DNA of 64,000 nucleotides from Candidatus Saccharimonadota bacterium (GTDB lineage Bacteria > Patescibacteriota > Saccharimonadia > Saccharimonadales > Saccharimonadaceae), in assembly GCA_016286785.1 (NCBI GenBank), contig JAEEUB010000001.1, positions 1-64,000 on the forward strand. Direction: 5' to 3'. The notes under the pieces are model-generated. The model searched no databases. It was given only the letters and a program-made list of their open reading frames with translations, and had not been told where the DNA came from. The translations under genes and the position numbers were made by a program. Shown piece by piece: positions 16,172 to 63,740 of this stretch. Each line of letters opens with the position of its first letter. Position 1 is the first letter of the stretch.

Positions 16172-19100
16172 CTACTGCTTTTCTAACGAAATAGTTACAA
16201 CTTCGCCGTTTAATTTAGCATCTTCCTTAAAAGAATAAACCTCTTTTTTGCTAACAGATTCCGCCCCAACCTCAGACTTTATTAGTCCCGTGTAATCCTT
16301 TGGTAAATCTATAGACACTGATAGTTTAATCTTATCTCCAGGAGCCAGTCCAGCGTGTTTGCGCGCCGATTGCACGGCACGAATCAGCTCGCGAGCCATT
16401 CCCTCTTCCCTAAGCTCCGGAGTCAAAGTCTTATCAAGTGCAAATTCTTTACCATTTTCAACTCTTTTAACGTTAACTTCCTCGGCAATAATTTGTTCAT
16501 AGAAACAATTTAATTTATCACCATCATAAATAAGTTTAGAAAGTGGCTGACGAATTTTAATCTGCTCTTCCTTCTCAGACTTCTGCATACGTAGAGCCAA
16601 AGCATCTGTAATAATCTGGCGAGTACGCGCCATATCAGACAAAACATCATCATGAGCCACCTCACCCGCCTCTGGCCAAGAAAGAAGATGTACGGACTCC
16701 CTACTCCCGGTTATCTTTTGGTATAGTTCCTCAGACAAAAACGGAGTAAATGGTGCTAGCAAGATAGCGGTCTTCTCAAGCATAAAGTAAAGCACACTAA
16801 AGGCCGCCTTTTTATCTACTAGGTCGTCATTCTTACTAAAACGTCGGCGTGAACGTCGTACATACCAGTTAGATAAATCATCAATAAACAAAATCACACC
16901 CTGAAGAGCTTTAGGAATATTATATTCTTCCATGCCAATCGTGATTTCATCGCGTAGTTGATAAAATCGATCAATAATCCATTCATCAAGCGGAGATTTA
17001 ATCTGAACCGAACCGTCAAAATCAGCAGAATCAAACCCTTCGACTTCGGCATAAGTAGTAAAGAAATCATATATATTCCAAAGCATCCCTAACTTTCGAC
17101 TAACATCAGATACATCCTTATCTAAAAGTGCAAAATCCTCACCCGAAAGCACCGGGCTAGAAAGCAGCAAAAAACGCAAAGCATCAGCAGAATATCGATC
17201 CATTAATTCATTAGGATCGGTAAAATTACCAAGAGATTTGCTCATCTTGCGACCATCATTCCCTGCCAAAGTTCCAGTCGTAATCACGTTCTTATATGCA
17301 TTTTTGTGGCCTTTTTTAGCCTCCGGGCCAAAAGCCCCAATATCCGCCAATGCCGTATTAACTGCGTGTAGATAATAGAACCACGCTCTTACTTGCCCCA
17401 CGTACTCCACAATAAAGTCAGCCGGATAATTAGCTTCAAACTTCTCTTTATTCTCAAACGGATAGTGTAGCTCGGCAAAAGGCATTGAGCCAGACTCAAA
17501 CCAGCAATCCAAAACTTTTTCAATGCGCGTAAAATGCTCGCCATTAATATCAAAGGTGATATCATCTACCCACGGCCGGTGATAATCCTCTAATTCCTTG
17601 CCTGATAATTCCTTTAATTCTGCATAACTTCCTACAACCTTAACCGACCCTTGGTCACCTTTCCAAACTGGCATCGCAGTAGCCCAAAACCTATCGCGTG
17701 AAAGGTTCCAATCTGGAGCAGCCTCAATATTATTTGCAAAGCGCCCATGTTTTAAATACTTTGGGAACCAGTTAATATTCTCGTTTTCACTTAGCATCAG
17801 CTGCTTTTGTCCCGCAACATCAAAGAACCAGCTCGGAAAAGCCCGATAAATAATGCGTTCCTTACTACGAGGGTTGAACGGATATTCGTGCTCAATGTAT
17901 TCAATCTTATAGATAATCCCCTTTTCCTCTAGGCATTTAGCGATAAACTTATTCCCCGCCCAAACTTGAATTCCGTTTTCATCCGTATCCCTAATTCCAA
18001 GCTCGTAAAGCTCTTTTGTCATCTCTGGAAGATAATAGCCATTTTCATCGAGACAATCCACAAAATCAACCTCATATTTTTGCACCAAATCGTAATCGTC
18101 TTCGCCATAAGCCGGCGCAATATGAACAATACCAGTGCCATCTTCGGCCGAAACAAAATCTCCAGGTAAAACCGTATAAGTGTCTTTACGGGCCACCGTC
18201 CCTTTATCACCACGCAGTCCAAGATCAAACAAACCATCAGCAACCTTGATAATGGGTTCATATTTTTCGCCAACCAAAGTCTTACCTTTAAAAGTTTTGA
18301 GTGGCTTTTTATCTTCAAACAATACTTTAGCTCGGTCCACAGCTAAGATATATTTTTCACCATTAACATCATATAGACCATATTTAAGCTCTGGACTAAC
18401 CGCGAGGCACATATTAGCAGGTAAAGTCCAAGGCGTAGTTGTCCAAGCCAAGAGATAAATATCTGAAGCTGGTAAATCTTTTTCTTCGGACCATAAGCCT
18501 GGGCGAGCGCCCTTGAGCGTGTCCGAAGAAAAATGATTCACGGCATCAGATAACTTAAACTTGACATATGCTGACGGATCCGTAACTTTCTGATAAGCAT
18601 CATTGTCCATCGTCACCTCAGCCTTAGAAACAGGAGTAGCAAATTTAGTATCATACATCAAAACCTTGCGACCTTCATAAATCTTACCCGCATCATAAAG
18701 CTGCTTAAATGCCCACCAAACCGATTCCATGTAATCTTTATTCATGGTGCGATAAGCATTATCAAAATCTACCCAACGCCCCACTCGGTCAATCGTATCG
18801 CGCCAGGTTTCCGAATTCGCCACCATCGATTCGCGCGCCTTTATAATATAATCTTCAAGACTCCATTTAGTGCCAATCTCGCGACGATCCGTAATACCAA
18901 GTTGTTTTTCCACAAAATTTTCAGCCGGTAGACCATGGCAATCCCAACCCCAACGCCGCTCTACCCTGTAGCCATTCATAGTCCAGTAACGTGGCACTGC
19001 ATCTTTTACGATAGAGCTAAGCAAAGTACCATGATGAGGATTCCCAGTAATAAATGGTGGCCCATCATAAAAAACATAAGATTTATCAATCGGTCTTAAT

Positions 19101-19198
19101 TCTACAGACTTCTCAAAAGTTTTATTCTTTTTCCACCACTTGCTGATGGCTTTTTCATATTCTACGGCCTTTCGCCGCTCTCCAGCTCTATATTTCAT
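16172..19198 (-). CDS. ileS: Isoleucyl-tRNA synthetase
   Basis: DGPPFITGNPHHGTLLS, WTTTPWTLPANM, KMSKSLGNFTDP; 1008 aa. TATAAT 6 nt before ATG. Confidence 0.96.
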   Translation of the reverse strand: MKYRAGERRKAVEYEKAISKWWKKNKTFEKSVELRPIDKSYVFYDGPPFITGNPHHGTLLSSIVKDAVPRYWTMNGYRVERRWGWDCHGLPAENFVEKQLGITDRREIGTKWSLEDYIIKARESMVANSETWRDTIDRVGRWVDFDNAYRTMNKDYMESVWWAFKQLYDAGKIYEGRKVLMYDTKFATPVSKAEVTMDNDAYQKVTDPSAYVKFKLSDAVNHFSSDTLKGARPGLWSEEKDLPASDIYLLAWTTTPWTLPANMCLAVSPELKYGLYDVNGEKYILAVDRAKVLFEDKKPLKTFKGKTLVGEKYEPIIKVADGLFDLGLRGDKGTVARKDTYTVLPGDFVSAEDGTGIVHIAPAYGEDDYDLVQKYEVDFVDCLDENGYYLPEMTKELYELGIRDTDENGIQVWAGNKFIAKCLEEKGIIYKIEYIEHEYPFNPRSKERIIYRAFPSWFFDVAGQKQLMLSENENINWFPKYLKHGRFANNIEAAPDWNLSRDRFWATAMPVWKGDQGSVKVVGSYAELKELSGKELEDYHRPWVDDITFDINGEHFTRIEKVLDCWFESGSMPFAELHYPFENKEKFEANYPADFIVEYVGQVRAWFYYLHAVNTALADIGAFGPEAKKGHKNAYKNVITTGTLAGNDGRKMSKSLGNFTDPNELMDRYSADALRFLLLSSPVLSGEDFALLDKDVSDVSRKLGMLWNIYDFFTTYAEVEGFDSADFDGSVQIKSPLDEWIIDRFYQLRDEITIGMEEYNIPKALQGVILFIDDLSNWYVRRSRRRFSKNDDLVDKKAAFSVLYFMLEKTAILLAPFTPFLSEELYQKITGSRESVHLLSWPEAGEVAHDDVLSDMARTRQIITDALALRMQKSEKEEQIKIRQPLSKLIYDGDKLNCFYEQIIAEEVNVKRVENGKEFALDKTLTPELREEGMARELIRAVQSARKHAGLAPGDKIKLSVSIDLPKDYTGLIKSEVGAESVSKKEVYSFKEDAKLNGEVVTISLEKQ
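18479..18533. repeat. Nested palindromic element, copy A (inside ileS)
   Basis: Perfect 13-bp arms TTTTTCTTCGGAC/GTCCGAAGAAAAA around the 29-nt core cataagcctgggcgagcgcccttgagcgt. Confidence 0.75.
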
Positions 19199-45810: not shown

Positions 45811-47553
45811 ATGGAAAAAAATAAATCAATTGATGGACTACGTCCTCGTCGTGTCTCAAAAAATACGGCCACCCCTAATAGTTCTGTAAAAAAGGTCGTA
45901 AAAAAATCCTCGCCTAGTAAAAAAACCACCGTTAAAACTGCACTAAAAACCAAGAGTTCTGCAAAAACTACAAAACCCCGCAAAACCACATCAATCAAAG
46001 TTCAGTCCAAAACTCCTAAGTCAACTAAAACTAAACCAGAAGAATCAACTAATTTAATCGAGACCGAATCTTTAAATACTATAAAAGAATCAGAAGCCGT
46101 AGAAGATTTTTTAAAACCAGTACAAGCATTTGACTTTAATAGCGAAAACGGCAAACTAGAAGTCGCCGAAAATAATCCAAAAAACAATCTGGTCCAGAAA
46201 AAACAACTAGAAAAAAATAAAAAACAGAAAAAACCTATGTCTAAAAAACGTAAAATTACCCTTTCGATCATCCTAATTATTCTACTCCTAGTCCTTGGCG
46301 CCGGCATCGCGTTTATCATTTGGGGTAACGATATTATCGCTAAAATCACTGGCGGCCAAGGCAATATCCTAGATTTAGTCTTCCAGGAAGAAAAATACGA
46401 ACCCCTAAAAACCGACGAAAACGGCCGCACCAATATTCTAGCATTTGGTACAAGCGGCTATAATATGGACGGCGAAGAAGGTAACGGCACCCATGACGGA
46501 GCCCAACTTACCGACTCCATTATGGTAATCAGTCTAGATCAAGAAACTGGCGATCTCGCCATGCTTTCCCTTCCCCGCGATCTTAAAGCTTCCCCCACTT
46601 GCACCGCTACTGGCAAAATCAACGAAGTTTACTGGTGTAATAATATGAATAACGACAACGAACAAGCCGGCGCCGAAGCTCTCATGGAAGAAGTAAGCCG
46701 AATCTTAGGAATCGATTTCCAATATTACGCTCACCTTAACTGGGGTGCTCTCGTACAAATCGTAAACACACTAGGCGGCATTAATGTTACTCTAGACGAA
46801 GACATCGCTGACTACGGTTGGACAAATGCCGTATTCGAAGCCGGCAAAGAATACACAATCGACGGAGAACAAGCCCTTGGTCTTGCCCGTGCTCGCCACG
46901 GAACCGCTTCTGGCGATTTTACCCGTGGTGCCTCTCAGCAAAAAATTCTCATTGGTATCAAAGACAAGATTTTCGAAAATGGCCTCGCTATTACCGATAT
47001 TATTAATTTAGCCGGCACTCTAGGTGACAATCTACGCACCAACTTTTCTCTTGATGAAATGAGGACCCTTGCACACCTTATGTCGGATTTTGATTTTGAT
47101 TCCGCCCGCCAAGTTTCTCTTATCGAACCAGAAATGCTCATGACGACCGGTACAATCAATGGTATTTCTTACGTCCTACCTGCTGGCGGTGCCAACTATT
47201 ATACAAGGATTCAAAATCATGTTGCCAAAATGTTTAGTAGCAATCCAAGAGATTACGAAGATTATTCTATTCTAGTTCTTAACGCAACCGAAACTCCTGG
47301 TCTTGCTACAGCCGAAAAGAACAACCTAGAAGAAGACGAATACCAAAACATCTATATAGACGACGCCCCAGAAGGTGAATACGAAGGCGACTATATATTA
47401 TATATGGTTAAAGACACTGCCCCAGGCGTCAAAAAACTCCTCGAACAAAAATATAACACCACCGCCAAATCACTCGAAGAGCTTCCGACTAACATCAGTC
47501 AAGATTATCATTTCGTAATTATCATCAATAAAACAGAATCTGAAGCCAAATAA
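45811..47553 (+). CDS. LytR-CpsA-Psr (LCP) family cell-wall polymer ligase
   Basis: DSIMVISLDQETGDLAMLSLPRDLK; LGGINVTLDEDI; GEQALGLARARHG. Confidence 0.92.
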   Translation: MEKNKSIDGLRPRRVSKNTATPNSSVKKVVKKSSPSKKTTVKTALKTKSSAKTTKPRKTTSIKVQSKTPKSTKTKPEESTNLIETESLNTIKESEAVEDFLKPVQAFDFNSENGKLEVAENNPKNNLVQKKQLEKNKKQKKPMSKKRKITLSIILIILLLVLGAGIAFIIWGNDIIAKITGGQGNILDLVFQEEKYEPLKTDENGRTNILAFGTSGYNMDGEEGNGTHDGAQLTDSIMVISLDQETGDLAMLSLPRDLKASPTCTATGKINEVYWCNNMNNDNEQAGAEALMEEVSRILGIDFQYYAHLNWGALVQIVNTLGGINVTLDEDIADYGWTNAVFEAGKEYTIDGEQALGLARARHGTASGDFTRGASQQKILIGIKDKIFENGLAITDIINLAGTLGDNLRTNFSLDEMRTLAHLMSDFDFDSARQVSLIEPEMLMTTGTINGISYVLPAGGANYYTRIQNHVAKMFSSNPRDYEDYSILVLNATETPGLATAEKNNLEEDEYQNIYIDDAPEGEYEGDYILYMVKDTAPGVKKLLEQKYNTTAKSLEELPTNISQDYHFVIIINKTESEAK

Positions 47554-47616
47554 AATATATTTAACCAGCAATAAAACCCCATTCATTATAATTGAATTTC
47601 AATAAAGAAGTAGAAC

Positions 47617-47675
47617 AATACTTTTTGGAACCATAAGCTTGGCCGAACGGCCTTGAGTGTGTTCCAAAAAGTATT
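47617..47675. repeat. Nested palindromic element, copy B (convergent intergenic region)
   Basis: Perfect 15-bp arms AATACTTTTTGGAAC/GTTCCAAAAAGTATT around the 29-nt core cataagcttggccgaacggccttgagtgt. Confidence 0.78.
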
Positions 47676-47686
47676 ATTTACTTCGC

Positions 47687-48151
47687 TTATTCAACATCCA
47701 CCTTACTAATAATAAGCTTTCTTTCTCTTCCCTCCCCTTCCGAATGAGTCTCAATATCCGAATAATCCTGTGCTACCTTATGTACAATCCTTCTATCCGC
47801 CGCATTAAGATCGAGTATCATATTTTCACCGGTCTTACGTACTTTCGCAATCCACCCTTCTGCTTTTTCCGCAATCCTGTCAGCCCTCTGCTTCTTGTAG
47901 TTTGCTACATCTACATTTACCCTCGTAATCTCAGCTTCTTTCGATACTAAAGCCATCGAAACAATATGCTGCAACGCTCTTAGATTATCCGCATTTCGCC
48001 CAATTAAGAGCGAATTAAGCGATGTAGACGGTACCGACAGTTGAATCACCTCATCGTCAATCGTAGAATACACTGCTACATTAATCCCAAAGAAACTAAG
48101 CAGGTCCTCCAGGTATTTTGCTGCAAATCTAATTGATTCGTCTTTATTCAT
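47687..48151 (-). CDS. jag: KH-R3H RNA-binding protein Jag/KhpB
   Basis: KH (LLIGRNADNLRALQHIVSMAL) and R3H (LDLNAADRRIVHKVAQDYSDIETHSEGEGRERKLIIS); next to yidC. Confidence 0.88.
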   Translation of the reverse strand: MNKDESIRFAAKYLEDLLSFFGINVAVYSTIDDEVIQLSVPSTSLNSLLIGRNADNLRALQHIVSMALVSKEAEITRVNVDVANYKKQRADRIAEKAEGWIAKVRKTGENMILDLNAADRRIVHKVAQDYSDIETHSEGEGRERKLIISKVDVE

Positions 48152-63450: not shown

Positions 63451-63461
63451 CAAATGCAACT

Positions 63462-63628
63462 TGGCGGAAGAGAGAGGATTCGCACCAAAGGTCCGAATCC
63501 GTATACTTTTTTCAAATGAAATTTGGCGGAAGAGAGAGGACTCGCACCGAAGGTCCGAATCCGTATCTTTTTCATCTTGTTATATCTAGCGGAAGAGAGA
63601 GGATTCGCACCAAAGGTCCGAATCCGTA
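63462..63628 (-). repeat. Three tandem tRNA-Ser 3'-end-derived hairpin units
   Basis: Minus-strand unit TACGGATTCGGACCTTYGGTGCGARTCCTCTCTCTTCCGCYA; unit starts at 63462, 63524, 63587, then the tRNA at 63650 (62-63 bp period). Confidence 0.88.
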
Positions 63629-63649
63629 CTTTTTTCATCTTGTTATATC

Positions 63650-63740
63650 TGGCGGAAGAGAGAGGATTCGAACCTCCGAACGGGTCAACCCCGTCACACG
63701 ATTTCGAGTCGTGCGCCTTCAACCACTCGGCCACTCTTCC
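63650..63740 (-). tRNA. tRNA-Ser(CGA), CCA encoded
   Basis: GGAAGAGTGGCCGAGTGGTTGAAGGCGCACGACTCGAAATCGTGTGACGGGGTTGACCCGTTCGGAGGTTCGAATCCTCTCTCTTCCGCCA; anticodon CGA; long variable arm. Confidence 0.93.

Follow-up and report, generated by a model that had tools for sequence, protein, structure and literature searches.

A hairpin with a conserved core and variable paired arms, probably mobile, found between and within genes of Saccharibacteria

Introduction

In integron attC sites, the stems are free in sequence and recognition presumably depends on the folded shape and the unpaired bases. To our knowledge, Rickettsia and Wolbachia are the main known sources of palindromes that code for protein in frame; the Rickettsia palindromic elements (RPE) comprise several families in one genus. 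RPE are mobile palindromes of 105 to 146 bp that occur in intergenic DNA and in frame within protein genes (PMC2229807), and Wolbachia counterparts have been mentioned (PMC3767692). Another translated form is PARCEL, the palindromic amphipathic repeat coding elements, which make up tandem 25-residue domains (PMC2996958). The open-access literature that we searched, with subscription journals and bioRxiv mostly outside it, contained no description of elements of this kind from Saccharibacteria.

Here we describe a hairpin first noticed in a 64,000-nt stretch of a Candidatus Saccharimonadota genome (JAEEUB010000001.1, positions 1 to 64,000), hereafter the window. By sequence comparison, we establish its copy number, core conservation, covariation, insertion as a whole hairpin, in-frame residence in open reading frames (ORFs), and the occupation of its sites by further hairpin families. 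Numbers with L and G are our labels for loci and genomes.

Results

The hairpin, copy B, occupies positions 47617 to 47675 on the plus strand of the window and reads AATACTTTTTGGAAC, then CATAAGCTTGGCCGAACGGCCTTGAGTGT, then GTTCCAAAAAGTATT; its sequence, fold, and covariance model match agree exactly with the layout of 15-bp arms around a 29-nt core given in a first-pass annotation. The left arm (47617 to 47631) is of the kind that varies among copies, with related arms at L037 and L088; the conserved core spans 47632 to 47660, and the right arm (47661 to 47675) pairs with the left. Arm pairing reaches 47614 to 47678, where 18 nt are paired at 94%. Core positions 10 to 21 (47641 to 47652) form an inner stem, GGCC/GGCC, around a GAAC loop, of which A16 and C17 (47647 to 47648) would provide the 5′ side, and G26 and T27 (47657 to 47658) the 3′ side, of a 2-bp pseudoknot. 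The single-strand fold has an energy of −29.7 kcal/mol (z = −7.8), equaled by none of 200 shuffles, and on either strand the fold is far better than those of shuffled sequences.

A sister, copy A, lies at 18460 to 18552 on the plus strand (core, 18492 to 18520; hairpin also given as 18482 to 18530), inside the isoleucine-tRNA ligase gene ileS (16172 to 19198, minus strand), which it interrupts in frame. It is translated as the peptide SSDTLKGARPGLWSEE, directly ahead of YLLAWTTTPW. Its arms are perfect for 13 bp and then imperfectly paired out to 32 nt (78% complementary). The two copies have the 29-nt core in common and unrelated paired arms, and at core positions 12 and 19, copy A has G12/C19 where copy B has C12/G19. 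The first-pass annotation thus saw the sister copy, the shared core, and the swap, but overlooked both the in-frame position in ileS and the probable nature of the pair as mobile hairpins. Elsewhere in the window, at 63459 to 63674, tandem 62- to 63-nt repeats copy the end of an adjacent tRNA gene (63653 to 63740) and may be relics of a tRNA 3′ part that was duplicated.

The core pattern matched twice in the window, against 0.00 matches expected, and the covariance model search that had been proposed at the outset returned exactly copies A and B (E ~5e-20). In the host genome, the model found 8 copies and an open pattern found 5 exact and 2 degenerate ones. Across the genus, 69 of 174 draft genomes carried 1 to 15 copies each, as judged by a pattern with positions 8, 12, 16, 19, and 27 unspecified; the reversed-pattern control gave none. 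The initial proposal had been staked on the existence of further copies, and these are present in both the host genome and the genus. A strict pattern had no match in 182 genomes from 60 other genera of the family, and a scan of 393 genomes of the class with it gave a single match outside the genus (G175). By covariance model, other genera of the family yielded further, weaker relatives, with six in G175 and six in G238 the most notable, and one match (G716, E 3e-4), with the same fold plan, came from a different class within the phylum.

Flanked by perfect arms of 30 bp, the core is also present at L219:9080-9132, directly after trxB, in a record labelled Bacteriophage sp. (MT837054.1). With its DUF6049-murJ-trxB genes, the record looks chromosomal rather than phage, and we take this one unverified contig to be actinobacterial and Bifidobacterium-like. 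The related cores in another class and on this contig possibly reflect exchange with hosts. A phage vehicle was rejected, since the sole strong match in the phage collection is this mislabelled chromosomal contig, and a plasmid vehicle was rejected because there was no real plasmid match. Dense arrangements also occur: three tandem cores at ~75-nt spacing, two of them degenerate, at L022/L256 (G025:C3, ~7.9 to 8.1 kb), and, in a different genus, a 650-bp stretch at L252:7196-7860 (G175:C28) with four copies, which are spread over both strands and occupy the gaps among dnaJ, a small ribosomal-protein-like gene, and ssb.

The consensus of 79 copies is arm-GA-GGAC-CRTARGCTYGGSCGARCGSCCTYGAGYGT-GTCC-GA-arm, whose core conservation is partly ascertained because the copies were collected via the core, although positions 12, 16, 19, and 27 were left open. 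The plan has a GARC loop on a 4-bp inner stem, then two conserved internal-loop strands and a 4-bp collar, GGAC/GTCC. Beyond the collar there is usually a GA/GA mismatch; at this step toward the arm, only ~42% of copies are paired. The inner pair 12-19 is G-C in 40 copies and C-G in 39, which makes the compensatory change first noticed between copies A and B a case of real covariation. A second covarying pair, missed at that stage, links loop position 16 to position 27 of the 3′ internal strand (A-T in 45 copies, G-C in 32, and G-T in 2). As C17 and G26 beside it are invariant, we infer that the core loop and the 3′ internal strand probably form a 2-bp pseudoknot. Each of the four possible combinations of these pairs is present (32, 27, 13, and 7 copies), and the swaps are therefore not one inherited event, even if, with related rows in the alignment, these counts are not of independent events. 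In an ungapped alignment of 55 rows, 97.5% of pair cells are paired, compared to 79.3% when shuffled and 27 to 54% when slid; the constrained structure suspected from two copies is thus a conserved fold.

Two copies in one genome, L084 and L086, have a ~91-nt hairpin in common at unrelated sites and then diverge abruptly, with flanks that are 21% and 33 to 42% identical or less, and in G175, two near-identical units lie inside one intergenic cluster. Moreover, when empty, a loop of queA measures 39 to 51 nt in most species, and most filled loops span 126 to 168 nt; the difference matches the core plus both arms, and the loops of murB and ileS give the same filled/empty picture. Therefore, the mobile unit is the whole hairpin, with insertion boundaries that are approximate, as there is one genome per species and aligning stretches are ~75 to 84% identical. 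With regard to target-site duplication, element borders differ by site; the sole bordered class, a second hairpin family, has inverted rather than direct repeats. Taken together, copy B is probably a member of a non-autonomous family of mobile hairpins of ~60 to 95 nt, which move whole.

Almost every locus has arms of its own sequence and length, so that the distinct outer stem originally remarked on in copy B is the rule across the family. The two arms of a copy pair at 13.1 of 18 bp with each other but at 6.6 with the arms of other copies (shuffle maximum, 7.3), and they are 73 to 96% paired out to 18 bp and above background farther out. Orthologues L011 and L028 are identical at all 24 paired arm positions, L086 and L096 differ by a paired double change (AT,AT to CG,GC), and L074 and L111, both in murB, differ by three such changes, while the arms of non-orthologous copies are mostly unrelated. 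This stability between some orthologues, set against unrelated arms elsewhere, is not explained by simple carriage of the arms; either their sequences drift apart under retained pairing, or they are rewritten by fold-back synthesis.

Fold-back synthesis is also the main rival to movement of the whole hairpin. The arms would be made at each site when synthesis primed by the core (template switch, quasipalindrome) copies one flank onto the other. Such an origin would suit arms that are unlike between most loci and yet, in several, perfect over 25 to 30 bp, as well as arm mismatches of 76 G.T and 68 A.C, as in decaying DNA palindromes. It would also suit the second family (family-5 shell, GGGTGRC...CAGGACCC), which at 34 sites has locus-specific inverted repeats on its borders, with a mean of 4.6 bp against 0.33 by chance. 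Nonetheless, the excess length of filled queA loops is roughly that of the core together with two arms rather than one; entire arms are common to some non-orthologous copies; and orthologous arms are not fast-evolving. We consider fold-back synthesis possible but doubtful. The idea that the arms arose solely by inverted duplication of the target is likewise weakened by the queA lengths and the shared arms, and is kept as a rival. Among arm variants, a subtype (L075, L077, L080, L095, and L011/L028), several members of which lie in divergent gene pairs, has a right arm ending like an extended −10 element (CGTGTTATAAT or similar) and may, judging from this motif, carry an outward promoter.

With respect to genes, 48 of the 79 copies lie inside ORFs of conserved genes (ileS, murB, queA, pyrG, trmD, tgt, ligA, and others). 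At a slightly different cutoff from this count, the core is in sense orientation in 19 ORFs and antisense in 27. The plus strand of the core is open in one frame, the others being closed by TAA and TGA, and the minus strand is open in three; these open frames are the ones that the copies in ORFs use. The hairpins appear often to sit inside essential genes without breaking them. The queA loop holds several hairpin families at one site, species by species, and at least five further families, some nested in one another, occur in the same loops of queA, murB, and ileS in other species of the genus (L039-L067, L108-L137, and L168-L197). Together, the families may be a major source of the insert loops in these three proteins. 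At loci around ileS in two relatives, L066:833-994 and L049:2525-2682, there are T-box leader matches of 46 and 32 bits, below the gathering score of 93.

The remaining 31 copies are intergenic, 16 between codirectional genes, 6 between divergent genes, and 9 between convergent genes. Copy B fills one such convergent junction. As the first-pass annotation had correctly stated, its neighbors are an LCP-family gene (LytR_cpsA_psr; 45811 to 47553, plus strand) and a jag/khpB-like gene with an R3H domain (47687 to 48151, minus strand), both with their 3′ ends toward the hairpin and the latter with its stop ~11 nt away. Intergenic copies from other species (L037 and L088) also have arms that, as in copy B, are A/T-rich and fully paired. 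Most convergent copies nearly fill the stop-to-stop gap, and their arms end in A/T-rich tracts. This placement, together with that of the L219 copy after trxB, would fit a plain bidirectional transcription terminator, copied around. However, termination would be lethal within essential genes, and most copies are in ORFs; moreover, a conserved, covarying core would be superfluous. A terminator scan of 47400 to 47900, whose 3- to 8-nt loop limit leaves the copy B hairpin out, gave no canonical hairpin plus U-run. We find it unlikely that the family consists of terminators. At the LCP/jag junction itself, copy B appears to be tolerated and may serve as a bidirectional terminator.

An equally improbable account is that of a structured RNA, either a cis-regulator or a small RNA, under selection at the RNA level. 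The pseudoknot covariation in the core, the conserved internal loops, and the strong folding are in its favor. Conversely, the sites are scattered across unrelated genes, the element occurs in both orientations inside genes, and the arms have no excess of G.U over A.C; the mismatch counts carry no RNA-strand bias, which argues against RNA-level selection of the arms and for pairing at the DNA level or decay of a DNA palindrome. A structured RNA motif acting in cis on mRNA, one of the interpretations first offered, is not supported by the ORF orientations and these counts. Rfam searches gave no gathering-level match at the element, the microRNA, CRISPR, and sRNA matches being below threshold and at chance level, and a known RNA family was rejected for want of a credible match. 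A hammerhead-like match at L076 (E 0.77, below threshold) was dismissed as chance.

The many copies of an imperfect hairpin with internal loops also recall REP-type elements moved by a RAYT/IS200-like Y1 transposase, but we judge this origin very improbable. The Y1 transposase domain (Y1_Tnp, PF01797) was absent from the copy-rich genomes checked (G000, G001, G004, G005, and G034) and matched in only 8 of 174 genomes, and the feet of the stems vary and carry no fixed tetranucleotide tag. On these grounds, RAYT/IS200 mobilization was rejected, and the term REP-like element, used in the first-pass annotation, is not supported in its strict sense. A requirement for reverse transcriptase was rejected as well: such genes were present in 7 of 12 copy-bearing genomes and were not found in G000, G005, G152, G137, and G098, all counts being from incomplete assemblies. 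G001, G004, G034, G025, G148, and G072 each encode two or three reverse transcriptases of ~355 to 450 aa, which are perhaps those of diversity-generating retroelements. Finally, a DNA uptake signal for natural transformation is scarcely credible, for although a short conserved core recurs at many sites, there are at most 15 pattern copies per genome, and the paired variable arms and in-frame placement would go unexplained.

Discussion

Movement of the whole hairpin, which we favor, could proceed as follows. The element would move as a folded single strand, the shape of the core serving as its recognition feature, and an enzyme supplied in trans would drive the movement; insertions would survive where they fall between genes or in frame within tolerant protein loops. 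Recognition of the folded strand is suggested because the fold of the core is conserved and the stems are free.

More speculatively, the family might be a class of mobile nucleic acid of its own within Patescibacteria, with a pseudoknotted core read in folded form by a trans-acting enzyme and with arms that are free or rewritten at each site. Such a class would seed in-frame peptides into essential genes and, with its sister families, be a major source of loop variation; its members in another class and on one actinobacterial contig would possibly have been exchanged with hosts.

The presence of several families in very small genomes, in ileS, murB, pyrG, and queA, would mean that coding mobile hairpins recur in reduced genomes. 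The inserts would also account for unusual insert loops that occur in annotated proteins of this group of ultra-small bacteria. Furthermore, a constant core with free paired arms separates the features that the mobility machinery would recognize from those that it would ignore, and this split opens to testing a long-standing question, namely by what means such elements move.

Among described systems, several share single traits with the family. REP/BIME elements with RAYT (PMC3733652) are also short, imperfect hairpins with internal loops and many copies, whereas the family lacks Y1 in copy-rich genomes and a foot tag and lies mostly in ORFs. Bacterial MITEs (PMC10969869, PMC2229807) are likewise small, non-autonomous, bounded by inverted repeats, and presumably moved in trans; in contrast to theirs, the terminal inverted repeats here vary in sequence and length, and no autonomous partner was found for the family. 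PARCEL (PMC2996958) shares the translation of palindromic DNA, but the hairpins are single inserts in several frames and both orientations. The resemblance to attC sites, purely one of analogy, lies in free stems and presumed recognition by shape and unpaired bases; unlike attC sites, the hairpins appear to have no adjoining gene cassettes and no R/L-box layout, and they occur inside essential genes. The closest parallel is RPE, likewise a non-autonomous palindrome with both in-ORF and intergenic copies (48 and 31 here) and several families per genus. The hairpins differ from RPE in size (~60 to 95 nt versus 105 to 146 bp), in residing in an unrelated phylum, in limiting conservation to the core and collar, with free arms, in having a covarying putative pseudoknot, and in the use of one loop of one gene by different sister families. 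By analogy, then, the family seems to work as RPE do without being one of them, set apart by its size and its free arms.
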